64,000 nucleotides of DNA from an uncultured Litoreibacter sp. (GTDB lineage: Bacteria > Pseudomonadota > Alphaproteobacteria > Rhodobacterales > Rhodobacteraceae): assembly GCA_947504205.1 (NCBI GenBank), contig CANNGL010000002.1, forward strand, positions 62,001-126,000, in the 5' to 3' direction. A program made the translations under genes and the position numbers. The notes beneath the pieces are model-generated. The model made no database searches. It was not told where the DNA came from and worked only from the letters and a program-made list of their open reading frames with translations. Positions 50,470-63,315 of this stretch are shown in pieces (the first letter of the stretch is position 1; each line of letters starts with the position of its first letter).

Positions 50470-51821
50470 TGCTGTCGCTCCGTAGACGCGCAATCCTCGG
50501 AGGCGCTGTTACGCTGGTCCTGTCCATCGTGATCGGCATGTTCGCCTTGTCGTCCTTCATTGATGGAAAAACACTTGAGCGTTTTGATAGCGGCCTGAAT
50601 GACCGTCACACACAGCTTGTCGTTGCTCTCTCGACCAGCGAAGGGAACCCAACCCGGCTCAAAGCCAGCTTATTCGACCCAGCCTATAGCACTCCACTCT
50701 CCGGCAGATATTGGCAGGTCATGGGACCAAATGGCCAAATCTACACATCGGGCTCGCTCATTGATCAGACGATCCAAATCGTCGGCGCTCCGGTCGGGCA
50801 AGTCCTCGATATCACCTCCGCGCAAGGTCCCTACGGAGTCGCTGTTCGCGCAGCGCATCAACGCATCATTCTAGAGGGCGGCCAGATCTGGAACGTGATC
50901 GTCGCCAACGATATCGCACAACTCAACGCAGAGCGCGAACGCACCCTACGCAGTTTGCTTCTCGCCTTTGCCCTCATCGGCATGCTGGCCCTTGCTGGTT
51001 CAATCTTGCAAACAACCGCAATCTTGCAACCCATCGAGAAACTGCGCCGCGACGTTGCAAATCGGTGGGACCGCAACGAGGATCTTTCGCCCACAGATTA
51101 TCCCGAAGAGGTTTCGCCCCTTGTGGAGGATATCAACGAACTTCTGGCGCGAAATCATGAGATCGTTGCGCGCGCCCGACGCCAAACCGCAGACCTTGCC
51201 CATGCTTTGAAAACACCGTCGGCAATACTAAGGAACGAATTAAGCACCCTTGTCGGTGACGCCGACAAAATTCAATCCGCGACAGATGCTCTGGACCGCC
51301 TCGATGCGCAGTTGGGTCGCTCACTGGCGCGTATGCGCGCCGCCAATAGCGCAGCGTCCATAAATCACAGAACCGACCTGTCAGCCTCTATTGCCCGGTT
51401 TGTCCGTCTATTCGGCAAACTCGCTGAGCGGGACGGCAAAACGATCGAAAGCCGCGTGACGGATGGCCTTCATGTCCCCCTCGACAAACAGGATATTGAA
51501 GAAGTGTTGGGCAACATCTTAGACAACGCTTTGAAGCATTGCGCATCAAAAGTGCGGATAAGTGCTGCGACGACCGAAAACGTGGTGTCGATACAAATTG
51601 AAGATGACGGACCCGGCATCCCTCAAACTGCGCAGCGTGAAGCCCTACGCGCAGGCGGGCGGCTCGACCAGTCCAAGCCCGGTACAGGTCTGGGTTTAGC
51701 TATCGCCGTCGATCTACTGCACGCTTATGGTGGCGAGCTTGACCTCGCTTCGTCCGATGATCTGGGCGGCCTTGCCGTGCTGATCAAAGTTCCAGCGAAT
51801 ATGGGTTTGAAAGTCGCTTAG
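50469..51821 (+). CDS. Sensor histidine kinase (PhoQ-like)
   Basis: A 450-residue membrane kinase. The first helix is at about 10-28 and the second at 163-183, with a periplasmic sensor domain between (about 30-160). The phospho-acceptor is His245 in QTADLAHALKTPSAIL. ATP-binding boxes are visible: EEVLGNILDNALKH (N), IEDDGPGIP (G1) and GTGLGLAI (G2). It is paired with the response regulator just before it. Its stop shares bases with the stop of the convergent tartrate dehydratase-like gene. Confidence 0.94.
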   Translation: MLSLRRRAILGGAVTLVLSIVIGMFALSSFIDGKTLERFDSGLNDRHTQLVVALSTSEGNPTRLKASLFDPAYSTPLSGRYWQVMGPNGQIYTSGSLIDQTIQIVGAPVGQVLDITSAQGPYGVAVRAAHQRIILEGGQIWNVIVANDIAQLNAERERTLRSLLLAFALIGMLALAGSILQTTAILQPIEKLRRDVANRWDRNEDLSPTDYPEEVSPLVEDINELLARNHEIVARARRQTADLAHALKTPSAILRNELSTLVGDADKIQSATDALDRLDAQLGRSLARMRAANSAASINHRTDLSASIARFVRLFGKLAERDGKTIESRVTDGLHVPLDKQDIEEVLGNILDNALKHCASKVRISAATTENVVSIQIEDDGPGIPQTAQREALRAGGRLDQSKPGTGLGLAIAVDLLHAYGGELDLASSDDLGGLAVLIKVPANMGLKVA

Positions 51822-52486
51822 CCGATCAGTTCGTCACCGCGATCATCTGTTTCGCCAAAACGCTTGAGAACCGCGGGCTTCGTCCCCTCGTAAACGCGAG
51901 CCAAATTTTCGGAAATTCTTTCGTTTTCGCGCTCAAACAAGCATTCGCCCTGTAAGTTAGACGCAACGATGAAGGGTCCCATCTTGTTACATCGGATGAC
52001 CCACATGGCTTGCGCCAGACCAAGTTCATCCCGCCAATGCACCGCTTCGACGTTCTCGACGCCCCGACCCAGCAACGCGCCCGTACCGTATCCGACCGTC
52101 GACAGATAGATTGCACCGTTGGGCACAAAGTAGTCCTTGTAGTCTTTCGACGACATGCCACCTTTGCCGATGATCAGCTTGGCTCCAGTTTTTGCAATCC
52201 ATTCAGGTAACCATTTGGCAAACCGGAAAGAGGCTGTCGCGGTGACCGCGCCCATGTCGAAGGAGCCATCTTCCCGAATGGCGGCAGCTGGAGAGCAATG
52301 AAAATTAGCAGCGCTCTGGCTCGGCAGTTCCATTGGGATATTCGCCTGCTCCTCGAGCGCGCGCATGTAGACACCCTCGCGCGCGGTATACATCAGGCCA
52401 TCGAGATAGACGATATCGCCCAGCTTCAACTCGGCGATGGCATCAGATGTCGGCGTGGTCGACAGGCGTATCTGGCGCGGCTTCAT
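51818..52486 (-). CDS. Class I fumarase/tartrate dehydratase-like beta subunit
   Basis: A 222-residue protein matching the C-terminal half of class I fumarase, split as in TtdB. Visible patterns are LKLGDIVYLDGLMYTAREG, FHCSPAA, AKLIIGKGGMSSKDY and YLSTVGYGTGALL. With the alpha subunit it should hydrate a fumarate-type double bond. It is the last gene of the overlapping seven-gene cassette and convergent with the kinase gene, with stops at 51818-51821 sharing bases. The specific substrate (fumarate, mesaconate or tartrate-like) is not readable. Confidence 0.86.
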   Translation of the reverse strand: MKPRQIRLSTTPTSDAIAELKLGDIVYLDGLMYTAREGVYMRALEEQANIPMELPSQSAANFHCSPAAAIREDGSFDMGAVTATASFRFAKWLPEWIAKTGAKLIIGKGGMSSKDYKDYFVPNGAIYLSTVGYGTGALLGRGVENVEAVHWRDELGLAQAMWVIRCNKMGPFIVASNLQGECLFERENERISENLARVYEGTKPAVLKRFGETDDRGDELIG

Positions 52487-53439
52487 TCTGCGGCCTCCTT
52501 GACTTCATTCCAAGCGACCGTGTCGCGTCGTTGAAACGGAGTGAACCAATCTGGATCGGTACGATATTCGACCCGGCCGTCGGCAAACAGGCGGGCTACA
52601 GCGCGCCGGGATGACAAGCAGAATGCGTGGACGGACATCTGCATTCCGCCAGTATGGCAGTAGCCGACTTCAATATTGCAATCGATCACCATGTTTTTGC
52701 CGACAAAACCCATCGCGCCCATACCAATCGAGTTTCCAAGCGTTTTGAATTCGTCTTCCAGCTCGGCGATGCGAGGATCAGGGTTTCGCGACCCGACAAC
52801 GCGCAGAGTCGAGGCCCGTTTACCCAGAACCATGCAGGTATCTTTTGAGCCTCCCAAGCCGATACCGATGATAGCTGGCTGGCAAGCAAGACCACGTTTA
52901 CCAAAGGCCACAAGCGTATCGAGATAAAATCGCTTTATCCCCTCGATACCGTCGGAGGGAAACAACATGCGATAATCTGTTCCAAACAACCCGCCCTTAT
53001 GGACCGTAATAAGATCGATCCAATCTCCTTCGGGTTCGAACCCGTATTCGATTTCAGGTGCGCCAATACCCACATTGTTGTCATGGTCCGTGCGCCACAG
53101 GGGATGTACCCGATTGGGTCGCAGCGGCACGCCGTTGGTGGCATTTGCGGTGGCGCGTCTAAGAGCGGTTTCAAGCGCGACCGGACCCCCTTCGATCGTC
53201 GCGTCATTTGCTATTTTGACATACCAACGCGGGACCCCAGTATCGCCGCACATAGCGCGTCGATCTTCTTTCGCGGCTTCGTAATTCTCTAACATGGCCT
53301 GAAGCACAAAAGAGCTGAGATCCCCGTCCTCAGTCTCCGCGGCGGTTTTCAAACCAGCGAGATAATCATCGGGTATCTCGATCGCCGCTTTAGCCATCAG
53401 AGCTTCAGCGGTAGATTGGATGAGGTCGATAGAAATCAA
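52483..53439 (-). CDS. Class I fumarase/tartrate dehydratase-like alpha subunit
   Basis: A 318-residue subunit with the three candidate cluster-ligand cysteines of the family: Cys64 in MCGDTG, Cys186 in LACQPAIIGIGLGG and Cys274 in SVHAFCLSSRRA, matching the order known from TtdA and class I fumarases for a labile [4Fe-4S] cluster. It overlaps the beta gene and the upstream DAO gene by four bases each. The pair is separate from a normal class I fumarase, which is one chain. Confidence 0.87.
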   Translation of the reverse strand: MISIDLIQSTAEALMAKAAIEIPDDYLAGLKTAAETEDGDLSSFVLQAMLENYEAAKEDRRAMCGDTGVPRWYVKIANDATIEGGPVALETALRRATANATNGVPLRPNRVHPLWRTDHDNNVGIGAPEIEYGFEPEGDWIDLITVHKGGLFGTDYRMLFPSDGIEGIKRFYLDTLVAFGKRGLACQPAIIGIGLGGSKDTCMVLGKRASTLRVVGSRNPDPRIAELEDEFKTLGNSIGMGAMGFVGKNMVIDCNIEVGYCHTGGMQMSVHAFCLSSRRAVARLFADGRVEYRTDPDWFTPFQRRDTVAWNEVKEAAE

Positions 53440-54518
53440 AACGCGCCCCTTTCCTGTTGCACTATCATATCTCGGTTAAGGTCGTAGCGCGACCAGTCTG
53501 ACGATACGGTATCGCCGCCGAAGAACTCGCCGATCAAAGGTGCCAAAGTTACGCCGCTATGGGTAACAGCAACAGATAGTCCTGCGATACCGGGGACGGC
53601 TCCGATCAACGGGTATCCATCGCGGGGGATGTGCCTGCTGCGCCGGACGACCTGCTCCACTTCCAACTGCGGGAGCCCTGGGAACATCCGCTGAATTTCG
53701 TCTATGGCTGTCTCAACGGCGAGATCAGCGGCATCCTTAGCGGTTTTGGCGAGCGAGCTTGCAATCATAAATCGACCCGATGCGTCCTGCCAGAAATCCA
53801 ATGACGGGCTCGCAAAAATCGGTAATGCCACACGCTTGGTGAGTTTTGTTTGGATCAAGACGCCGGGGCTAGCCCGAACGGACAGATCAACATTGAAGGG
53901 CTTGAGCAAGTCTGCCGATCCAAGTCCGGCAGCCACGATGACCCGATCAGTCGTCAGCTTCTTTCCATCGGACAGAACCACGCCGGCTATACGCCCCGCC
54001 TCGGTTAGCATGGTCGCAACATGCCCCTTCTGGAACACGGCGCCCTGACTTATGGCGGCGTCACGAAACCACTTTACCAAACTCGCGGGATTACCCGCGC
54101 CTTCGCCCTTTACATACAGCGCAACCTCAGGGGGACTGGCGAAATCGGCTACGGAATTTTTGAATTCACTCTGTCCGAGCAGGCTGACCTCCAACCCCAA
54201 ATCTCGAAGAAAGTCCGCGTGGGCCTCATGGCCCTTGTTCTGAGTGCCCCAAATCAGGGTGCCTGGAAAGGTGGCCGGAAGCGACGGGTGATCATTGGCC
54301 AAGTTGTGCCATGCTCTGAGGGACTTGGATCGAAGCCGAGCGTAGTCGGGATCTGACGTCGATGAGACATTGATCCAGGCCAGCGAACCCAAAGAAGTTT
54401 GAGTCGACGCATCAGCGCTGTCGATGCAGGTAACGACGTGACCATTTGCTGCGAGTTGGCGCGTGATCGCTACCCCCACGATACCAGCACCGACTACCAA
54501 GGTATGCCCAGTGGTCAC
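53436..54518 (-). CDS. DAO family FAD-dependent oxidoreductase
   Basis: A 360-residue flavoprotein with the N-terminal dinucleotide motif VGAGIVGVAITRQLAANG and the DAO-type end (YPLIGAVPGIAGLSVAVTHSGVTLAPLIG). It is of the type that oxidises secondary or D-amino acids or 2-hydroxy acids, with no clue to substrate. It overlaps the SdhA-like gene upstream and the fumarase-alpha gene downstream by four bases, so it is probably made in the same stoichiometric programme and works on the same pathway. Confidence 0.85.
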   Translation of the reverse strand: MTTGHTLVVGAGIVGVAITRQLAANGHVVTCIDSADASTQTSLGSLAWINVSSTSDPDYARLRSKSLRAWHNLANDHPSLPATFPGTLIWGTQNKGHEAHADFLRDLGLEVSLLGQSEFKNSVADFASPPEVALYVKGEGAGNPASLVKWFRDAAISQGAVFQKGHVATMLTEAGRIAGVVLSDGKKLTTDRVIVAAGLGSADLLKPFNVDLSVRASPGVLIQTKLTKRVALPIFASPSLDFWQDASGRFMIASSLAKTAKDAADLAVETAIDEIQRMFPGLPQLEVEQVVRRSRHIPRDGYPLIGAVPGIAGLSVAVTHSGVTLAPLIGEFFGGDTVSSDWSRYDLNRDMIVQQERGAF

Positions 54519-56266
54519 TGGGCGGCGACCAGCGTGTCTGGTTCCCCATCCGGTAAAATCGTTTCTCCGGGCCGAACGATTGAGAAATCGACTGGTGCGC
54601 GCGAGACGCTGATCCCATCAGCGTTTTGGCGCGCGACTGTGAAGTAAGAGCCGTCCAGATCGCCGGGGTCCGGTCGATCTTCGCGGTAATGTGCACCACG
54701 GGAATTGTCCCGTGCGAGAGCCGCTTTGGCGATGACCTCAGACACGTCGCAAAGCGAACGCATGTTCAGCCAATCGTGCCAAGTCAAGTTAAACGCCAGA
54801 TTGTCGGAAGCAACGCCGACCGTCATTAGCTCTTCAGAAATGTTCGATAAGCGTTCCAAGCCCCTGCGCAGACCAGCCTCGGTACGCATGACCCCCACAT
54901 CCTCCCACATTGCTTCCTGCAGAGTTTGACGCAGGGGTTGGACCAAATCTGCTTTCAAACTGAGTGGATGACGAGCACGGTCGATTTCAGCTAATAACAC
55001 ATCTCCGTCAGGGTCGCGCAGGCTTTCCATCTTGCGGATATCTGCGCCCATCACATCCCCTGCAATGCCGCCATAAACTGTGGAGTTTGCAACGCCGTTC
55101 CCCCCAAGCCGGTTGGATCCATGTGCGCCGCCAGCGTCCTCGCCTGCAACATATAGACCCTCAAGGGCTGTCCGGGTATCGACATCTACAACCACGCCGC
55201 CCATGAAGTAATGCGCGGTGGGGACCACTTCCACCAAACCGCCAGCGAGATCAAAACCACTATCGGCGCAGCGCTTGACCATACCTTTGAACTTCGAGCG
55301 AACATTTTCGGCCCCGAGATGGGCCATTGAGATGAAAACACCTTCCTGCTCGGGGTCATTGTTCTTGCGCATCTCATCGAAGATACCTCGACTGACGACA
55401 TCACGGGTCGCGCGCTCACCTTTTGCGTCGTAGTCGAACATGAAGCGTTGACCAGCATGGTTCAAAAGTTGCCCGCCCGCACCGCGCAATCCTTCTTCCA
55501 ACACAGTACCAGTCATACGGGTGTGATCCCCGGCAAGCAGGCCCGTTGGATGAAATTGCACCATCTCCATATCGCGCAGTTCGAGACCTGCTCGGAGTGC
55601 CATGGCCAAGCCGTCCATCGTCTTGTCACCTGACGGCGTATGGTAGCGGTACATTGTCGGGCCACCGCCCGTCGCCATCAAAATGGTCTTGGCGCGAACA
55701 AATCGCAAACCACCTGTGCGCATATCGATCATCAGAACACCTGACAGCGCCGAGCCGTCTTTGCTTGGGATAAGACCGATTGCGCGATGCTCTTGAAGTT
55801 TTTCCACTGGCTGCGCCAGAACTTGTTCCATGAGCCGGTTGATGATTTCGATGCCCGTCAAGTCGCCCTTGTGAACCGTTCTGTCCGCTGTCTGCCCCGC
55901 AAAAGCCTTCTGGTGCAGCGAGCCGTCTGTGTTGCGGTCGAAAAAACAGCCAACCTCGTTTTCGAGTTCATGGATGCGCACAACGGCTTGTTCGCAAAGA
56001 CGCCAAGCCATGTCCTGATTGGGAAGCCATTTGCCCCCTTGGATGGTGTCCATGAAGTGCCGCTCGACGGTATCGCCGCCACCCAGCGCGACGTTGTAGC
56101 CCCCCTGCACCATACGGGTGCAACCGCATTTGCCGATCAGGCCCTTGACGGCGATTGTAATCTTTGTGCCCTCAGGAGCTGATTGCTGCGCATGAAGCGC
56201 CGCAAAAAGACCCGCGCCACCAGTGCCGAGGATCAGGATATCGGTATCGTGGCGTGCAATTCGCAT
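54515..56266 (-). CDS. Succinate dehydrogenase/fumarate reductase-like flavoprotein
   Basis: A 583-residue flavoprotein of the SdhA/FrdA family. The FAD motif GTGGAGL is at 14-20. Dicarboxylate-site residues are conserved: the His in QFHPTG, the Arg in EGLRGAGG, the Arg in TRDVVSRGI, the His in TAHYFMGG and the Arg in GSNRLGG. The position that holds the FAD-linking His in SdhA (S-H-T before QGG) is Cys49 here (GCTRMVQGG), so FAD is probably not covalent. ATG 56266 is chosen because it overlaps the stop of the anchor gene by one base; in-frame sequence reaches further upstream. Confidence 0.86.
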   Translation of the reverse strand: MRIARHDTDILILGTGGAGLFAALHAQQSAPEGTKITIAVKGLIGKCGCTRMVQGGYNVALGGGDTVERHFMDTIQGGKWLPNQDMAWRLCEQAVVRIHELENEVGCFFDRNTDGSLHQKAFAGQTADRTVHKGDLTGIEIINRLMEQVLAQPVEKLQEHRAIGLIPSKDGSALSGVLMIDMRTGGLRFVRAKTILMATGGGPTMYRYHTPSGDKTMDGLAMALRAGLELRDMEMVQFHPTGLLAGDHTRMTGTVLEEGLRGAGGQLLNHAGQRFMFDYDAKGERATRDVVSRGIFDEMRKNNDPEQEGVFISMAHLGAENVRSKFKGMVKRCADSGFDLAGGLVEVVPTAHYFMGGVVVDVDTRTALEGLYVAGEDAGGAHGSNRLGGNGVANSTVYGGIAGDVMGADIRKMESLRDPDGDVLLAEIDRARHPLSLKADLVQPLRQTLQEAMWEDVGVMRTEAGLRRGLERLSNISEELMTVGVASDNLAFNLTWHDWLNMRSLCDVSEVIAKAALARDNSRGAHYREDRPDPGDLDGSYFTVARQNADGISVSRAPVDFSIVRPGETILPDGEPDTLVAAQ

Positions 56267-56601
56267 CAGATCGCCTTCAGAAAAAACGTGCCGGACACAA
56301 ATATCGCCAATGCGATTGAGGTGGCCGCCATGGTTTTCTGGCCAGATGACCAACCGAGACGTTCCAACGCCATCAATCTGAGTCCCCCAAACGCATGCAG
56401 CGCCAACAGAAACACCAGCCCGAACTCGGCGACTTTGACAAAGGGTAATTCGGTGAGGGTCAAGACTCCGTCCAAACCTTCCGCGCCACGAAGGGCCATG
56501 CCCAGCACCCAAAAATGTAGCGGCAGAAACAAGGCCAACGCGAGACCGGACACGCGATGGGCCACGAAGGCAATCCATAATGGATGCGCGCGGGCCTTCA
56601 T
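56266..56601 (-). CDS. Complex II-like membrane anchor, SdhC-type
   Basis: A 111-residue membrane protein with three hydrophobic helices. Candidate haem or quinone residues are in HRVSGLALA, PLHFWVLG and LHAFGGLRLMA, which follow SdhC patterns. It starts at ATG 56601, overlapping the upstream anchor gene by four bases. It should hold the SdhAB-like dimer on the inner membrane and pass electrons to quinone. Confidence 0.78.
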   Translation of the reverse strand: MKARAHPLWIAFVAHRVSGLALALFLPLHFWVLGMALRGAEGLDGVLTLTELPFVKVAEFGLVFLLALHAFGGLRLMALERLGWSSGQKTMAATSIALAIFVSGTFFLKAI

Positions 56602-56930
56602 GCCAACGTGACCGCGAACGTGGCTTGCAGGCCCAGTGCCGCAAGCCCCAAAGCAATAACGATAGTCAGGACGCGCAAAGAGGATCCGACAACGCCGAGC
56701 CATTCGTGTGCTACAACTCGCACGCCGATCGCAGCATGGACGGACACCGCCAAGACAAAGCTTCCGTAGAAAAGAAACCAAAATACGGACCCTTGCGTGC
56801 GGCCTAGAATCTCTGCCGCTGTCAGGCCGCCTTGGATCGCATATATCATGGTTGCGATATGGCCTATGACCAGCGGGATCATTATCAAAGCGGTGATGCG
56901 TTGGAGCATGTAGAGGCGCAGATCAAGCAT
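56598..56930 (-). CDS. Complex II-like membrane anchor, SdhD/SdhC-type
   Basis: A 110-residue membrane protein with three helices and His residues in IGHIATMIY, SVHAAIG and VAHEWLG that could bind haem. It starts at ATG 56930, overlapping the iron-sulfur gene by eight bases. With the other anchor it gives a two-anchor complex II layout, but which one is SdhC and which SdhD is not certain. Confidence 0.75.
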   Translation of the reverse strand: MLDLRLYMLQRITALIMIPLVIGHIATMIYAIQGGLTAAEILGRTQGSVFWFLFYGSFVLAVSVHAAIGVRVVAHEWLGVVGSSLRVLTIVIALGLAALGLQATFAVTLA

Positions 56931-57654
56931 TTCGCTTCCACCAATTCTTGACCGTTTCCCGTTTGAGATTGGCGATAGCGGACAGCGGATCCAGCTCGTT
57001 TGGACAATACTGCGTGCAACTTCCGATGGAGTGACAGTTGTGGCACCCGCCAGTCCCCGAAATCGCTGCAAGGATGTCCTCGCGACCGCTGTCTTTCTCG
57101 TCTTTGATCAACGTCCACGCGCGTTGCAGCGCCGCTGGCCCCAGATAATCGGGATTGCCGGCTACCGTATCGCAAGCGGCGTAACAGACAGCACAATTTA
57201 TACATTCGATGGCCGTGTTTGCTGCCACACGGTCCGCACTTTGCATATCGACAGGGGCCATCAGATCATGACGATCAGCGCTTGGATGATGGTGCGCCTC
57301 AGCAGCAGTCCATTTGTCAAAGAATGGATCCATATCGGTTGCAAGATCTTTCACAACCGGAAGGTTTCTGAGCGGACCAATCTTTAGCTCTCCGTCCCGC
57401 GCAACTTTGTTGACATGCGTACGGCAGGTCCAGCGTGGCTCATCATTGACCATCATCGCGCATGAGCCACACATCCCCACCCTGCACGCAAACCTGTAGC
57501 TGAGCGTCGGGTCAGCATTGTGCTGTATCCATGAGACGATATCGAGAACGGTCTGGCTGTCATGTTGCGGCACCTCGAAGGTTTCGAACTGGCCAGCATC
57601 TGCGCCACGCCAAACCGAAACTTTCAACTGCCTTTCAGCCTTTTGCGACGACAT
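56923..57654 (-). CDS. Succinate dehydrogenase/fumarate reductase-like iron-sulfur subunit
   Basis: A 243-residue SdhB-family protein with complete cysteine sets: [2Fe-2S] Cys57, 62, 65, 77; [4Fe-4S] Cys151, 154, 157 and 217; [3Fe-4S] Cys161, 207, 213. These match the SdhB pattern, with an extra Cys204. It is the first of seven overlapping genes. The iolG stop lies 58 bases upstream on the same strand with no evident terminator, so transcription may continue from the inositol genes. Confidence 0.88.
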   Translation of the reverse strand: MSSQKAERQLKVSVWRGADAGQFETFEVPQHDSQTVLDIVSWIQHNADPTLSYRFACRVGMCGSCAMMVNDEPRWTCRTHVNKVARDGELKIGPLRNLPVVKDLATDMDPFFDKWTAAEAHHHPSADRHDLMAPVDMQSADRVAANTAIECINCAVCYAACDTVAGNPDYLGPAALQRAWTLIKDEKDSGREDILAAISGTGGCHNCHSIGSCTQYCPNELDPLSAIANLKRETVKNWWKRNA

Positions 57655-57712: not shown

Positions 57713-58699
57713 TCAGGGGGCGACAGGCGCGCCCGTATCCTTCGATTTCTGCGCAGCATCGGCGATGCGCTGCGCCGCCAATCCGTCCCTGATCGACGGC
57801 GTCGGCATCTGTCCGTTGGCGATGCAATCGATGAAATGCGCCATCTCGAGGCGATATGCTTCTTCGTAGCGCTCAAGGAAAAAATGCTTTGCCGGTGCAC
57901 GCCGAAAGCCTGCCTCCGTCGCAATCTCTACAGCGTTTTCCAACTTGTTCTCTGCCCGCAACAGACCTTTCGCCCCATGCACCTCGACGCGCTGATCGTA
58001 GCCATAAGACGCCCGACGGGAGTTCGATATCTGACAAATCTTCCCGGAAGTCGTGGTCAGAACAACCGCAGCTGTGTCGACATCTCCGGCCCGCCCGATC
58101 TCTGGATCTACAAGTGCGGAGCCTGTCGCATAGACGCTAACGGGTTCCTCACCCAACAAGAACCGCGCCATATCAAAATCGTGGATCATCATGTCCCGAA
58201 AGATTCCGCCAGAGCTTTTGACGTAGCTGATTGGCGGAGGCGACGGATCGCGAGAGAGGATGGTGACAAGTTCGACATCGCCAATTTCGCCATCCGCGAT
58301 GCGCGACCTGATCGCTGCAAAATTGGGATCAAATCTGCGGTTGAAAGCGGTCAGAAATGGTACACCCGCTGCTTCGACAGTGGCCATGCACTCCTCAATG
58401 CGCGCGACTGACATGTCGACCGGCTTTTCACAGAAGATGGCTTTTCCTGCTTTGGCCGCTGCCTGTATCAGATCGAAATGGGTGTCAGTTGGCGTGCCGA
58501 TAACGACTGCATCGATATCCGGTGACCCAATGATTTCCAGACTGTCGCGAAGCTCTGAACCCGTTTTCTCGGCGAGCGCTTGACCGGCCGCAGACACCGC
58601 ATCCGAAACAGCTACGATCTTTGCACCTTCGAGCGACTGGATCGAACGCGCGTGAACTTGCCCTATCCGACCGCACCCAAGAAGTCCAATTCCCTGCAT
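57713..58699 (-). CDS. iolG: Inositol 2-dehydrogenase
   Basis: A 328-residue Gfo/Idh/MocA enzyme that oxidises myo-inositol to scyllo-inosose with NAD+. It has GLLGCGRIGQVHARSI at the start and CEKPVDMS with Lys91, and a C-terminal domain with DMMIHDFDMARFL containing the catalytic Asp and His. Placement among iolD, iolC, iolB and the aldolase supports the assignment over other members of the family. It ends 58 bases before the complex II-like genes. Confidence 0.88.
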   Translation of the reverse strand: MQGIGLLGCGRIGQVHARSIQSLEGAKIVAVSDAVSAAGQALAEKTGSELRDSLEIIGSPDIDAVVIGTPTDTHFDLIQAAAKAGKAIFCEKPVDMSVARIEECMATVEAAGVPFLTAFNRRFDPNFAAIRSRIADGEIGDVELVTILSRDPSPPPISYVKSSGGIFRDMMIHDFDMARFLLGEEPVSVYATGSALVDPEIGRAGDVDTAAVVLTTTSGKICQISNSRRASYGYDQRVEVHGAKGLLRAENKLENAVEIATEAGFRRAPAKHFFLERYEEAYRLEMAHFIDCIANGQMPTPSIRDGLAAQRIADAAQKSKDTGAPVAP

Positions 58700-58700
58700 G

Positions 58701-59531
58701 TCAGGCTCCTTTGAAATTAGTCAGGACCTGTCTGGTCGCTGCTACAAGCGGCTGATGAGTGTCTTTGAGTATCTGTACCCGATCAAACCGATCAGGATCT
58801 GTGTTTACGGCGTCTCGCAATGCAGAGCCAAAGGCCATGCGCAATTCCGTACCGATATTGAATTTGCATATACTGGAGGTCTGCGCCAAGTTTTTACGTT
58901 GCGCGACAGGCACACCAGATCCCCCATGAATAACCAGCGGAACCTCTGTTACAGCTTCAATGGCACGGATGCGATCAACATCAAGGCCGCCTTCCTTGTC
59001 TTGCTGCAGATGCACGTTACCGACCGATATTGCCATTGCGTCGATGCCCGTGTCATTGGCAAACATGGCCGCCTCCTCTGGATCGGTTCCGGCGGAATTT
59101 TCTCCATTGGCGTATCCTACAAATCCGATTTCGCCTTCACACGAAATACCAGCTTTCCGGGCAAGTTCAGCGATGGCAGCGGTTTCGTCGATGTTCTGGG
59201 ATAGTGGCTTTCGCGACCCGTCATACATGAGCGACGTGAAACCGCTATCCAACGCCTCGCGGCAATCTTCAAAGGAATAGCCATGGTCAAGATGGGCCAC
59301 CACCGGGACGCTTGCGGCCTCTGCCAAATGGCGAAACATCTTTCCAAGTATGGGTAAGGGTGTGTGCTCGCGGCAAGACGGTCCTGCCTGCAGAATGACT
59401 GAAACGCCCTCGGCTTCAGCGGCCTCAACATAGGCGCGCATATCTTCCCAACCCAGTGTCACCAGACCCGCAACGGCATAGCCGTTCTTCAGCGCTGGCT
59501 GAAGCACCTCAGATAGTGTCGCGAGGCTCAT
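58701..59531 (-). CDS. Class II aldolase, IolJ-like
   Basis: A 276-residue class II aldolase of the Fba/GatY type with zinc-site regions VVAHLDHGYSF and VIHGGSGVP and catalytic ISCEGEIGF. In the iol cluster it most likely cleaves 5-dehydro-2-deoxy-6-phosphogluconate to dihydroxyacetone phosphate and malonate semialdehyde. The symbol iolJ would suit but is not given because the family is broad. It overlaps iolB by four bases and is separated from iolG by a single base. Confidence 0.8.
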   Translation of the reverse strand: MSLATLSEVLQPALKNGYAVAGLVTLGWEDMRAYVEAAEAEGVSVILQAGPSCREHTPLPILGKMFRHLAEAASVPVVAHLDHGYSFEDCREALDSGFTSLMYDGSRKPLSQNIDETAAIAELARKAGISCEGEIGFVGYANGENSAGTDPEEAAMFANDTGIDAMAISVGNVHLQQDKEGGLDVDRIRAIEAVTEVPLVIHGGSGVPVAQRKNLAQTSSICKFNIGTELRMAFGSALRDAVNTDPDRFDRVQILKDTHQPLVAATRQVLTNFKGA

Positions 59532-60367
59532 TTGAACTTGGCGACCATGTCCATGATGCCAGGGATCGTATGTAACTGCTCGGCATGGGTCGGCTGGAAA
59601 TACTGCACAAGGCTGCGTTGGCTCAAGCCACCGAGAATTGTGAAGTAATACATTTCATAACCCGGAAGAACAGCGCAGGGATGGTAGCCTTTATCAAGAC
59701 AGATCGTAGAGCCATCCATGATGTGGTAGGCATCGCCCGGCTTATTGTCTTCGCGCTGCAACATCTGAACACCCGATCCGTAGTTGGGGCGGAAGCGGAA
59801 GTTATACGTTTCATCGTGTCGTGTTTCATCAGGCAGGCGATCTGTGTCATGTTTGTGCGACGGAAATCCCGACCAACCGCCCTGACCAACAGTATAAAGT
59901 TCGGAGACCAGCAACCGACCCACCTGGTCTTTTTGTTTCTGACCCAGAATATGTTTGATTTTACGGTGGGTCTTGGTGTCGTCCGACCCATATTGCACCA
60001 GATCAAGCTCGTCCTTGCGAACGGCGAAAGGTTTCAGAACGTCGTCGAACTTGGCACCCGCGACGAATACCTCACAATCGGACGCGGCGCTGATGCCGGC
60101 TTTCGCGCCGGTCGGCACGTAGACGCCCTCCGGCTCCCCATCCCAAACATCTTCGCCACGCCCCCCTAGGGCTTCAGCCTGAAACTCACCCACGCCGACA
60201 TCAATGGTGCCTGTCGCGGGCACGATGCAGGTTTCATACCCGGCCACGTCGTAGTCGAAGCTCTCACCCGCCTTTAGTTTGACGATATTGAAATAATTCA
60301 ATGGAACCAAAGCGTTGTTTGGCTCAACAATTGGTTCGTTTTTGTTGTCGAAGGGTGGGATATGCAT
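59528..60367 (-). CDS. iolB: 5-deoxy-glucuronate isomerase
   Basis: A 279-residue bicupin of the IolB/KduI superfamily, cytoplasmic. Patterns include GWSGFPSHKHD with metal-binding His, ETYNFRFRP, DGSTICLDKGYHPCAVLPGYEMYYF and the C-terminal end. It acts after iolD in inositol breakdown. It overlaps the aldolase gene and starts three bases after the stop of iolC. Confidence 0.88.
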   Translation of the reverse strand: MHIPPFDNKNEPIVEPNNALVPLNYFNIVKLKAGESFDYDVAGYETCIVPATGTIDVGVGEFQAEALGGRGEDVWDGEPEGVYVPTGAKAGISAASDCEVFVAGAKFDDVLKPFAVRKDELDLVQYGSDDTKTHRKIKHILGQKQKDQVGRLLVSELYTVGQGGWSGFPSHKHDTDRLPDETRHDETYNFRFRPNYGSGVQMLQREDNKPGDAYHIMDGSTICLDKGYHPCAVLPGYEMYYFTILGGLSQRSLVQYFQPTHAEQLHTIPGIMDMVAKFK

Positions 60368-60370
60368 CGG

Positions 60371-61363
60371 CTATCCTTTTGATGGATCGGTTGGACCCGG
60401 ATGGGTCATAAGAAAATCTTCGAGTTGTGTCAGATCAGGAAGGGCTGGAGCGCAGCCCGGCTTACCAACGACGATTGCTGCGCATGCTGATCCACGCAGT
60501 ATCGCGTCATCAAGGTCATAACCGGCTGCTATGGCGGCTATCAGACCAGCCATGAAGCTGTCCCCTGCCCCAGTCGGTTTGAGAGCATCAACCTTGTAAA
60601 TGCCAGTGCGCGTTTCGCTGTCACCTTGATAGGTTATCGCCCCTTCCGGCCCCATCTTGTAGATCACGACTTCTGCCGAATTGTGCGCAAGCTCTTTTGC
60701 CTTGCCCAAACCTTTAGCCACATCGCCGGCCATAAAGCCAAATTCTTCATCATTGCCGACAATCATGTCAGCCAGCGCACCCGCTTTTGACAGGACCTCC
60801 TCCGCAACTTGCGGGGATGGCCAGGAATATGGGCGGTAATCGACATCAAAAATTATCGGCAGTCCGGCCTTTTTTGCGAGATCGAATGCGTGAAAAGCAG
60901 CGGATCGCGATGGTTCTGCCGCAAAGACAGTGCCAGCCGTGATCAGGGCACCGTATGCCGCGTAGTCCACTGCTTCGACATCCTCGACGGTCATTTGAAA
61001 GTCGGCGGCGCCGTTCCGGTAGATAACAGACTGGTGTCCATCCAGTAAGGTCTCGTAAACGGCGAGCGAATTGCGTGCCTCGCCACCCACCGATTTAACA
61101 TGACGCCGATCAAGGCCGTATTTGTCCAACTGGTTTAGACAATATCGTCCAACGCTGTCGTCACTGACAGACGTAACCAGCGCGGCCTTACCGCCAAAAC
61201 GGCAGATACCAGCACCAGTATTGGCCGCTGAACCGCCAAGTCCGGAGTGAAACACCTCCGCCTCTTCCGTCTTGGTTCCGGGCGGGTGTGGAAAGAAGTC
61301 CATGCCTGCCCGACCGATGATCAGAAAATTGTTCTGGCGGATGCCATCCACAAGGTTGCTCAC
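60371..61363 (-). CDS. iolC: 5-dehydro-2-deoxygluconokinase
   Basis: A 330-residue PfkB-family kinase. Visible are the N-terminal GRAGMDFFPHPPG, GGSAANTGAGICRFG, and the PfkB signature LKPTGAGDSFMAGL with the catalytic Asp. GTG 61363 is chosen because it stands one base after the iolD stop with GAGGTGT upstream; an ATG at 61411 would add 16 residues and overlap iolD. The product phosphorylates the deoxygluconate intermediate for the aldolase. Confidence 0.88.
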   Translation of the reverse strand: MSNLVDGIRQNNFLIIGRAGMDFFPHPPGTKTEEAEVFHSGLGGSAANTGAGICRFGGKAALVTSVSDDSVGRYCLNQLDKYGLDRRHVKSVGGEARNSLAVYETLLDGHQSVIYRNGAADFQMTVEDVEAVDYAAYGALITAGTVFAAEPSRSAAFHAFDLAKKAGLPIIFDVDYRPYSWPSPQVAEEVLSKAGALADMIVGNDEEFGFMAGDVAKGLGKAKELAHNSAEVVIYKMGPEGAITYQGDSETRTGIYKVDALKPTGAGDSFMAGLIAAIAAGYDLDDAILRGSACAAIVVGKPGCAPALPDLTQLEDFLMTHPGPTDPSKG

Positions 61364-61364
61364 C

Positions 61365-63236
61365 TCAGACACCTCGCCTTTGTCGTGTCCGGGTCGCTTC
61401 CCAGTCTTCATGAGCTATCCGAATTTTCTCATTGTCACTGACTTGAGGTGTTCCGACCTCCCACCAGGTATGGCCCTGTGTGGTCCAGCCTTCGTACGGG
61501 TCGACCTGCATCACGATAATGCTGGTTTTGTCTGCGTTCTTTGCTGCTTGAAACGCGGTGGCAAGTTCGGACGGATTGCTAACGGTTACGGCGTTCGCGC
61601 CCATTGCCTTGGCATGGGCTTCGAAGTCGACGGCAAACGCCTCTGGGATCGTTGGCGCGTCGGACAGGAGGTTATTGAAGCTTTCATTCCCGGTGTTGTT
61701 TTGCAGCTTGTTGATGACGGCGAAGCCCCCGTTGTCCAGCACCAGAACAATCATCTTTTTCTGGCTGAGCACCGAAGAGTAGATGTCGGAATTCATCAAC
61801 AGATAGGACCCGTCGCCGCAGAATACGATTGTGTCTTGGTCTGCCTCGCGCTCCGCTTGCGCGATGCGTGCGCCCCAGCCACCGGCAATCTCGTAGCCCA
61901 TGCAGGAAAAGCCAAATTCCACATCGACAGTTCCGATATCCAACGTCCGCCAGTTTGCGGTGACCTCGGCTGGTAGCCCGCCTGCGGCAGCCACGACGCG
62001 GTCACGTGCGTCACATAGTTCATTCACAACGCCGATGGCTTGCGCGTAGGAATTGGGCCGGTTGCCGGGTTTGACGTTCTCGGCAACGTACTCATTCCAC
62101 TTTGACCGCTCTGCCTGCGCATGCGAGGTCCAGTCCGACGGCGCGCGATAGCCCTCCAAGCCCTTTGTCAGAGAGACGAGGCCATGTTTGGCGTCACCAA
62201 TCACCGGCAAAGACATGTGTTTTTGTGCATCGTGACGCGCGAAATTCAGACCAATGAACTTGGCCTCTTTGGAAAATGCCGTCCATGACCCGGTGGTGAA
62301 ATCCTGCAGGCGTGTCCCGACCGCTAGAATAACATCTGCCTGCTCGGCAATTGCATTTGCGGAATCTGAGCCCGTTACGCCGACTGGTCCGATATTCAAC
62401 GGATGGTCCCAGAGCATGTTGGCCCGTCCCGCTATGGTCTCAACCACGGGTATGTCGCTGGTTTCAGCCAAGTCGGTCAGTTCCTGAACGGCGTCGGCAT
62501 ATTGCACACCGCCGCCCGCAATAATCATCGGGCGCTTAGCTGATCGAAGCAGGGCAATCGCCTCCTCGACCTCCCGTGGGTCCGGCAAAGGTTGGCGGAT
62601 GCGGTAAACCTTCTTGGCGAAGAAGGACTTGGGATAATCATAGGCCCAGCCCTGAACGTCTTGCGGCAGACCAATGAAGGCCGGACCGCAATCAGCGGGA
62701 TCCAACATTGTGTTAAGCGCTGCAGGCAATGACTGAACGATCTGAGCCGGATGGGTGATGCGATCCCAGTAGCGGCTGACTGATTTGAACGCGTCATTCA
62801 GGCCGATGGCCGGAGAGTTGAAGTGTTCAAGCTGTTGCAGAACGGGGTCGGGCAGACGCGTCAGGAACGTGTCGCCACAGAGCATCAGAACCGGTAGCCG
62901 ATTGGCATGAGCCAAGGCCGCTGATGTCAACAGGTTGGATGTCCCCGGACCCGCCGATGCGGTGCAGAACATAAACCTGCGGCGCAGCCATTGCTTGGTG
63001 TATCCGGCCGCGGCAAAGCCCATGCTTTGCTCGTTTTGACCGCGGTATAATGGTAGCGCTTCACGGTGCTCGTAGAGTGCTTCGCCCAGACAGGGTACAT
63101 TTCCGTGTCCGAATATGCCGAAACCACCACCGCAAACGCGATGCTCCACCCCGTCAATCTCGATATATTGATTGGCAAGCCATTTGATGATGGCCTGCGC
63201 GGTCGTCATGCGAATGGTATCAGGTTCAGTACTCAT
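61365..63236 (-). CDS. iolD: Trihydroxycyclohexane-1,2-dione hydrolase
   Basis: A 623-residue ThDP-dependent enzyme that opens the ring of the inositol-derived dione. It shows NEQSMGFAAAGYTKQ with the ThDP Glu, GPGTSNLLTSAALAHANRLPVL, and the ThDP-binding CGDGSYLLMNSDI followed by VLVLDNGGFAVINKLQ. ATG 63236 is chosen because GGGAGGGG lies upstream; in-frame sequence reaches back to 63284. It is the first gene of the minus-strand iol operon; iolE and iolA are not in the window. Confidence 0.9.
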   Translation of the reverse strand: MSTEPDTIRMTTAQAIIKWLANQYIEIDGVEHRVCGGGFGIFGHGNVPCLGEALYEHREALPLYRGQNEQSMGFAAAGYTKQWLRRRFMFCTASAGPGTSNLLTSAALAHANRLPVLMLCGDTFLTRLPDPVLQQLEHFNSPAIGLNDAFKSVSRYWDRITHPAQIVQSLPAALNTMLDPADCGPAFIGLPQDVQGWAYDYPKSFFAKKVYRIRQPLPDPREVEEAIALLRSAKRPMIIAGGGVQYADAVQELTDLAETSDIPVVETIAGRANMLWDHPLNIGPVGVTGSDSANAIAEQADVILAVGTRLQDFTTGSWTAFSKEAKFIGLNFARHDAQKHMSLPVIGDAKHGLVSLTKGLEGYRAPSDWTSHAQAERSKWNEYVAENVKPGNRPNSYAQAIGVVNELCDARDRVVAAAGGLPAEVTANWRTLDIGTVDVEFGFSCMGYEIAGGWGARIAQAEREADQDTIVFCGDGSYLLMNSDIYSSVLSQKKMIVLVLDNGGFAVINKLQNNTGNESFNNLLSDAPTIPEAFAVDFEAHAKAMGANAVTVSNPSELATAFQAAKNADKTSIIVMQVDPYEGWTTQGHTWWEVGTPQVSDNEKIRIAHEDWEATRTRQRRGV

Positions 63237-63315
63237 CGCGACGCGACCCCTCCCAGGATTTTTGAGCGCTCCCACAGAAATCATCTTGCGAGATTTCGAT
63301 TCTCAAGATACTGAT

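Follow-up and report, generated by a model that had tools for sequence, protein, structure and literature searches.

Which acid is handled by a complex II-like enzyme whose genes overlap with those of a split fumarase? The question is raised by a locus in a 64,000-nucleotide stretch of DNA (the window) from an uncultured Litoreibacter sp. of the Rhodobacteraceae (GenBank assembly GCA_947504205.1, contig CANNGL010000002.1, positions 62,001 to 126,000). Six of the seven genes at this locus form a unit that is conserved among relatives, and some short sulfonate is probably its substrate. The more specific route from 3-sulfopropionate via sulfoacrylate to 3-sulfolactate is given an even chance. 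Gene content, gene order, changed active-site residues and neighbouring genes are observed directly; substrate, direction and product we infer.

The seven genes were confirmed on the minus strand at positions 51818-57654, with successive overlaps of 8, 4, 1, 4, 4 and 4 bases:

56923-57654, minus strand: sdhB-like iron-sulfur (Fe-S) subunit, 243 amino acids (aa), 12 Cys in three groups like complex II
56598-56930, minus strand: membrane anchor 1, SdhD-like, 110 aa, Sdh_cyt, TIGR02968 at 29.5 bits (cut-off 41.8)
56266-56601, minus strand: membrane anchor 2, SdhC-like, 111 aa, TIGR02970 at 54.9 bits, above the cut-off of 52.3
54515-56266, minus strand: sdhA-like flavoprotein, 583 aa, start codon ATG
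53436-54518, minus strand: DAO-family flavoprotein, 360 aa, start codon GTG, inserted between sdhA and the fumarase alpha gene
52483-53439, minus strand: class I fumarase-like alpha subunit, 318 aa, start codon TTG, motifs CGDTG and KGGLFGTDYRM
51818-52486, minus strand: class I fumarase-like beta subunit, 222 aa, start codon ATG

The gene names are supported by Pfam and NCBIfam. An earlier note on this DNA had described seven overlapping genes (sdhB, two anchors, sdhA, DAO, fumarase alpha and beta), and this description is borne out by coordinates, overlaps and family models. Broad NCBIfam models are passed, namely dhsB (193 bits, cut-off 88), the cytochrome b anchor (55, cut-off 52) and the alpha-subunit domain (206, cut-off 101). 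Equivalog cut-offs are missed for sdhA_forward (328 vs 727 bits), fumarate hydratase (196 vs 276) and TtdB (119 vs 264). The flavoprotein and the hydratase subunits therefore belong to their families without being the standard enzymes.

The genome has a separate set for the tricarboxylic acid (TCA) cycle. A canonical SdhA (TIGR01816, 923 bits, cut-off 727) is encoded at about 41-43 kb of contig C2 and is adjoined by SdhC, SdhD and SdhB, which were assigned by eye; a FumC (TIGR00979, 735 bits, cut-off 665) is found at about 529 kb of contig C1. The cassette is regarded as accessory because of these separate genes, and the earlier view that it is not the TCA set is upheld by the presence of both. 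The single match to PF05681, the alpha-subunit family, in this genome is the cassette's own. The distribution of the cassette is patchy: it is present in 6 of 20 other genomes of the same genus and, with the window's genome counted, in 42 of 394 genomes of the family.

To collect relatives' loci, named genomes were scanned, which yielded at least 80 loci (the listed loci); neighbouring genes in 80 listed loci were scored at 35% identity and 60% coverage. The order sdhB, anchor, anchor, sdhA, fumA, fumB is kept in all 69 listed loci with all six genes found, and in the remaining 11 one to three cassette genes were not found in the available stretch. The six-gene cassette also occurs on plasmids of Sulfitobacter, Paracoccus, Pseudorhizobium, Methylobacterium nodulans and Pseudomonas. 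A DAO homologue, in contrast, is found in none of the 80 listed loci at the thresholds given and in none of 103 loci at E 1e-10 and 50% coverage. Conservation of the order in relatives thus holds for six of the seven genes, and a conserved seven-gene unit was rejected since DAO was matched in none of these loci. Of the desaturation-hydration-oxidation route proposed earlier, the desaturation-hydration pair is retained as a likely reading, for a succinate-like acid other than succinate, and the DAO oxidation step falls outside the conserved unit.

Within the family, the best match of the DAO protein among the 394 genomes is 39% identical (up to five candidates scored per genome); its nearest homologues are 37-39% identical, and their short loci gave no functional clue. 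Among 72,556 plasmid records there were three matches with E no higher than 1e-20, none of them above 28% identity. Of the solved proteins, glycine/D-amino acid oxidases come closest, with modest scores that do not exceed 83 bits. The most fitting view of the DAO gene is that of a further insert at an internal junction of the cassette. Other inserts were recorded as well: a CoA-transferase lies between fumA and fumB in 8 listed loci, and isochorismatase-like, SDR-like, homocysteine-methyltransferase-like and Uma2-like genes were recognised by eye in the translations at sdhA-fumA and fumA-fumB junctions. Loci with junction inserts are L050, L052, L054, L057, L062, L067, L069, L073, L080, L083, L094, L095, L096 and L123.

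Both enzymes carry changed active-site residues. In the flavoprotein, Cys stands at the position of the usual FAD-linking His and Glu at that of the usual substrate-binding Thr (TEG motif). Both are invariant in 33 aligned SdhA sequences of the clade and are common to the Rhodococcus and haloarchaeal relatives too. A loop carries an insert of about 6 residues, and HGANRLGSNSL is changed to HGSNRLGGNGV. The catalytic Arg, two substrate His and a second Arg are kept (R289, H240, H353 and R387 in the alignment with E. coli FrdA, numbered on the translation of 56269-54518, one above the count from ATG). The roles of these residues, including that of the Thr contacting the second carboxylate, are those we take to hold in E. 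coli FrdA. Similarly, the alpha subunit departs from the known motifs: among 112 loci with a match, some of which are the same place twice, CGDTG is found in 103, CADTG in 5 and CQDTG in 4, the last being 31-34% identical. The clade has KGGLFG(T/S)DYRM in place of KGGGxEN, and the three Fe-S cysteines match, in an alignment, the cysteines of 7xky, a solved alpha subunit. As CQDTG, KGGGxEN, the His and the Thr are all replaced, both enzymes depart from what is typical of succinate and fumarate enzymes, which a change of substrate would call for. An AlphaFold2 model built from 33 sequences reached a mean pLDDT of 74, with values below 50 at residues 241-248, 254-256 and 380-391; no argument is drawn from the pocket because the confidence is poor at the active-site loops.

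The neighbourhoods in relatives point to a sulfonate instead of the free dicarboxylate that had been suggested before. At least one of TauE, YeiH, SorA-like, SuyB-like, ComC-like and ComE is present in 51 of the 80 listed loci. A TauE-type exporter is found in 47 of them and lies within 1.5 kb of the six-gene block in 35 of 46 measured loci. Other sulfur genes, present in 14 of the 80, comprise SorA-like relatives of molybdenum sulfite dehydrogenase (8 loci), YeiH (5), SuyB-like (2) and SlcC-like, ComC-like and ComE (1 each); NIPSNAP is found in 8 loci, and MMSDH and Xsc each in none of the 80. In all eight loci with a SorA-like gene (L047, L050, L052, L054, L065, L067, L095, L107) this gene starts 0-52 bases past fumB. 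The NCBIfam cut-off for SorA, 600 bits, is passed by the proteins of M. nodulans (696) and M. oryzae (685) and failed by that of L095 (171); M. nodulans combines a SorA above the cut-off with the six-gene order. In Paracoccus sp. IB05 the cassette is bordered by SuyB-, SlcC- and ComC-like genes, and in a Rhizobiaceae bacterium by a SuyB-like gene. In L047, L050 and L067, the SorA-like gene is followed by a thiamine-diphosphate enzyme; the models closest to its family are those of acetolactate synthase and 2-hydroxyacyl-CoA lyase.

Genes fitting the supply of such a substrate are also present. A Zn-alcohol dehydrogenase is encoded in 13 of the 80 listed loci, ending 0-1021 bases before sdhB in 12 of them, and an SSADH-type dehydrogenase in 6; the two occur together in 3. 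The aldehyde dehydrogenases score slightly below the SSADH cut-off (617-633 vs 646 bits). Both fit the conversion of 3-hydroxypropanesulfonate via 3-sulfopropanal to 3-sulfopropionate, as would be needed for this route. The NT-26 dehydrogenase comes near the sulfolactaldehyde reductase model (324 bits, cut-off 348). For the Ldh-family proteins, the nearest model is L-sulfolactate dehydrogenase, with scores well below the cut-off (164 and 204 vs 500).

Annotated plasmid loci hold TauE/SafE exporters, YeiH-type exporters, NIPSNAP and sulfite dehydrogenase. In one of them, S190, neither TauE nor any other sulfite gene was seen in the vicinity, and the annotated plasmid locus of P. seriniphilus has a YeiH-type gene about 7 kb off as its single sulfur-type neighbour. 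A UxaA-family gene pair is located in two haloarchaeal and two Methylobacterium loci, accompanied by an Ldh-family gene in Haloarcula sp. GH36 and M. oryzae. On the haloarchaeal plasmids (L026, L027), SdhA-like and SdhB-like genes occur without annotated anchors or fumarase, adjacent to TauE, UxaA pairs and a gene annotated as argH, whose product may stand in place of the hydratase there. A CoA-transferase together with a 2-hydroxyacyl-CoA-lyase-like thiamine-diphosphate (TPP) enzyme was seen near the cassette in L030, L034, L050 and L054. That these two might offer an alternative outlet, from sulfolactyl-CoA to formyl-CoA and sulfoacetaldehyde, is pure speculation.

In Roseovarius nubinhibens ISM, the six genes are accompanied by TauE, LysR, TctC, TctA and a CoA-transferase. 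For the same strain, a Konstanz thesis cited in the available text of PMC11489063 gives the route from homotaurine via 3-sulfopropionate and sulfoacrylate to sulfolactate. According to that text, bacterial breakdown of 3-hydroxypropanesulfonate or 3-sulfopropionate was previously unreported apart from the thesis, and TauE of Enterococcus gilvus is a probable 3-sulfopropionate exporter. In P. onubensis (L093), eleven genes adjoin one another: sdhB, anchor, anchor, sdhA, fumA, fumB, TauE, LysR, binding protein, permease and ATPase. Cluster 3 of Paracoccus wurundjeri Merri comprises eleven locus numbers, MDP0926751-0926761, and according to PMC12421959 nine of its proteins are raised on sulfofucose. 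We infer that this cluster is an L093-type cassette.

The association of the cassette with sulfolactate genes was assessed across the 394 family genomes, which represent 393 genera. ComE, a subunit of sulfopyruvate decarboxylase, is present in 22 of 42 cassette genomes vs 60 of 352 others (p = 1.4e-6). For Xsc the corresponding figures are 37 of 42 and 208 of 352 (p = 1.6e-4). With 245 of 394 genomes positive, Xsc is too common to discriminate by itself. In the window's genome, both ComE and Xsc score above the NCBIfam cut-off. Xsc is located at C2:444372, and a cluster of LysR, an open reading frame (ORF) in the ComD position, ComE and a PGDH-family (SlcC-like) gene lies at about 145-148 kb of C2, roughly 19-22 kb past the window end. 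A second, weak ComE-like match was noted at C5:150878-151294 (105 bits, below the cut-off).

In the proposed pathway, the six-gene unit would encode a complex-II-type membrane dehydrogenase acting on 3-sulfopropionate, which is to sulfonates what succinate is to dicarboxylates, and yielding 3-sulfoacrylate by oxidation. Electrons would pass from FAD through the Fe-S clusters and the pair of anchor subunits to quinone. The two-subunit Fe-S hydratase of the class I fumarase type would then add water to sulfoacrylate, giving 3-sulfolactate, and other genes would carry sulfolactate on to sulfite. Candidates for this last stage are the LysR/ComD-position/ComE/SlcC-like cluster and Xsc in the window's genome, and SuyAB/SlcC/ComC in other bacteria. 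The DAO protein, as a lineage-specific insert, may act as an oxidase of some hydroxy or amino acid that bears a sulfonate group, such as sulfolactate or D-cysteate, with sulfopyruvate as the product; this is a guess.

A number of observations weigh against this proposal. Of the 47 loci with TauE, 37 contain none of the other sulfur genes scored, and TauE-family proteins are not all sulfite exporters. The SuyB-like proteins fit no sulfolyase model; the UxaA-family pair is read as SuyAB from its neighbours because the sole model match is to galactarate dehydratase, below the cut-off. M. oryzae, with the fullest sulfolactate-plus-SorA set near an SdhA relative, has a flavoprotein only 62% identical, a fumarase alpha subunit of the ordinary CQDTG type (34% identical) and a different gene order. 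By these comparisons its locus is a cousin, not an orthologue. Its short UxaA, long UxaA, SlcC-like and ComC-like genes follow an order that resembles the one given for P. wurundjeri in PMC12421959, and the match of P. wurundjeri cluster 3 to the cassette is by count, position and annotation only, not by sequence. The Cys and the Glu of the flavoprotein raise the main doubts. Changes of the FAD-linking His in fumarate reductase cost succinate oxidation, which would weigh against an oxidising role here if the FAD is not bound in some other way. A Glu in place of Thr where the distal end of the substrate binds is not an obvious fit for an anionic sulfonate, and the AlphaFold model is too uncertain in that region for a judgement.

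The genome association weakens under control as well. In a subset of 174 of the 394 genomes, taken in handle order and with iolD as an unrelated inositol marker, ComE occurs in 6 of 18 cassette genomes vs 29 of 156 others (p = 0.21), and ComE is also associated with iolD (p = 0.013). In this subset Xsc is found in 15 of 18 vs 91 of 156 (p = 0.04) and iolD in 12 of 18 vs 78 of 156 (p = 0.22). The association of ComE and Xsc with the cassette is therefore suggestive and not specific.

The window's own copy has atypical surroundings. No TauE, LysR, TctC/TctA or other reference neighbour is found in the 64 kb, and the 14 kb past the window hold only weak LysR- and IolG-like matches. Instead, the cassette sits behind inositol genes on the same strand:

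57713-58699, minus strand: iolG (inositol 2-dehydrogenase), TIGR04380 at 441 bits, above the cut-off of 355
58701-63284, minus strand: rest of the inositol cluster, with class II aldolase, IolB-like, iolC and iolD

The iolG gene ends 58 bases upstream of sdhB with no terminator-like site listed between them, and iolG and the cassette may share one transcript. An inositol link unique to this genome was dropped as an idea, since iol genes lie near the cassette in 3 of 103 loci searched. Homologues of IolB, IolC, IolD and the aldolase are encoded on the opposite strand in L117, homologues of IolB and the aldolase (78-79% identical) in L119, and one iolG in L040 (Paracoccus seriniphilus). The adjacency is rare, yet may not be chance. 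Because this setting is atypical, the chance that the window's copy serves the 3-sulfopropionate route is put below even.

The inositol genes bear on an alternative that keeps the oxidation of 3-sulfopropionate and places the water on the sulfonated carbon, so that sulfite and malonate semialdehyde would be formed and methylmalonate-semialdehyde dehydrogenase (MMSDH) would lead on to acetyl-CoA. The inositol (iol) pathway also ends in malonate semialdehyde, the window, L117 and L119 all have iol genes next to the cassette, and in Pseudomonas sp. MPC6 an MMSDH (695 bits, cut-off 448) directly follows fumB. However, MMSDH is found in none of the 80 listed loci, sulfolactate-type genes are partners too, and the iol genes are confined to 3 of 103 loci. 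Class I fumarases bind the hydroxyl adjacent to the Fe-bound carboxylate, which favours sulfolactate over malonate semialdehyde, and this variant is held to be unlikely. A substrate free of sulfur, as in the earlier note, would be a C4/C5 dicarboxylate (for example methylsuccinate, via mesaconate to citramalate), with the TauE-type transporters moving something else. Parts of tripartite tricarboxylate transporters in 28 of the 80 listed loci and a CoA-transferase nearest to succinate-glutarate/mesaconate CoA-transferase models in 9 would suit it. It is nevertheless rather unlikely, as SorA-like, YeiH, SlcC/ComC- and SuyB-like genes are repeatedly found next to these orthologues, DAO is not conserved, and the Paracoccus cluster, if correctly identified, is induced on a sulfosugar.

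Another possible substrate is sulfosuccinate: it would be oxidised to sulfofumarate, and water at the sulfonated carbon would release sulfite and oxaloacetate. Sulfite-type genes and tri-/dicarboxylate-type transporters stand beside the cassette, and sulfosuccinate has carboxylates at both ends, like the normal substrate of complex II. This leaves the alcohol and semialdehyde dehydrogenases and the C3-fitting SlcC/ComC/SuyB-like genes unexplained, and the R. nubinhibens report, as cited in the available text, names 3-sulfopropionate; sulfosuccinate is thus considered quite unlikely. That the cassette is a spare copy of TCA-cycle enzymes, with no special substrate, has family membership on its side and nothing more. 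The identity of the cassette SdhA to the genome's own canonical SdhA is 35% over the shared part, the motifs of both enzymes are changed, presence is patchy and the neighbours are of an accessory kind, which makes a spare copy very improbable; a TCA duplicate was rejected on account of the canonical genes elsewhere and the motif changes.

The 3-sulfopropionate route can be extended to a broader proposal. A dedicated 3-sulfopropionate:quinone oxidoreductase and a sulfoacrylate hydratase, found in many Rhodobacterales as well as in other proteobacteria, would be the missing aerobic route from homotaurine or 3-hydroxypropanesulfonate to sulfolactate; an actinobacterium and haloarchaea have a related dehydrogenase. 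The flavin-site Cys would mark a mode of FAD binding that is new for complex II. Taken as a whole, this is a tentative proposal, possible rather than probable. Among the literature matches listed, for which most subscription journals lie outside the coverage, no gene assignment was found for the sulfosuccinate, sulfofumarate or 3-sulfopropionate/sulfoacrylate steps in the text available. If the proposal is true, a step of the sulfur cycle so far seemingly without named genes becomes traceable in genomes, and genes annotated as succinate dehydrogenase and fumarase have their place in the sulfur cycle, perhaps together with a set that one proteome study tied to the Krebs cycle. C3 sulfonates, which are produced by algae, plants and gut bacteria, constitute large organic-sulfur pools.

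Compared with succinate:quinone oxidoreductase (SdhABCD, complex II) and FrdA, the cassette shares the subunit plan, the Fe-S cysteines, the two anchors and the catalytic Arg/His set. It differs in the order sdhB-anchor-anchor-sdhA, the His to Cys and Thr to Glu changes, the loop insert and HGSNRLGGNGV. With the two-subunit class I fumarases and L-tartrate dehydratase (FumA-alpha/beta, TtdAB), it has in common the alpha/beta split and the three cysteines of 7xky; CQDTG is replaced by CGDTG or CADTG in the cassette clade, and KGGGxEN by KGGLFG(T/S)DYRM. Genes similar to those of sulfolactate catabolism in Chromohalobacter, Paracoccus and Roseovarius (SuyAB, SlcC, ComC, SlcHFG; ComDE/Xsc), named after the available text of PMC12421959 and PMC5812351, stand beside some cassette loci. 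In the parts of these sources that were accessible, the known pathways take sulfolactate, cysteate or a sulfosugar as their entry point, and none is described with an Sdh/fumarase-like pair upstream. A further described counterpart is cluster 3 of P. wurundjeri (PMC12421959), which resembles P. onubensis L093 in its eleven locus numbers, the TauE homologue in seventh place and the annotation as fumarate/tartrate metabolism, and differs in that its authors suggest a possible link to the Krebs cycle.

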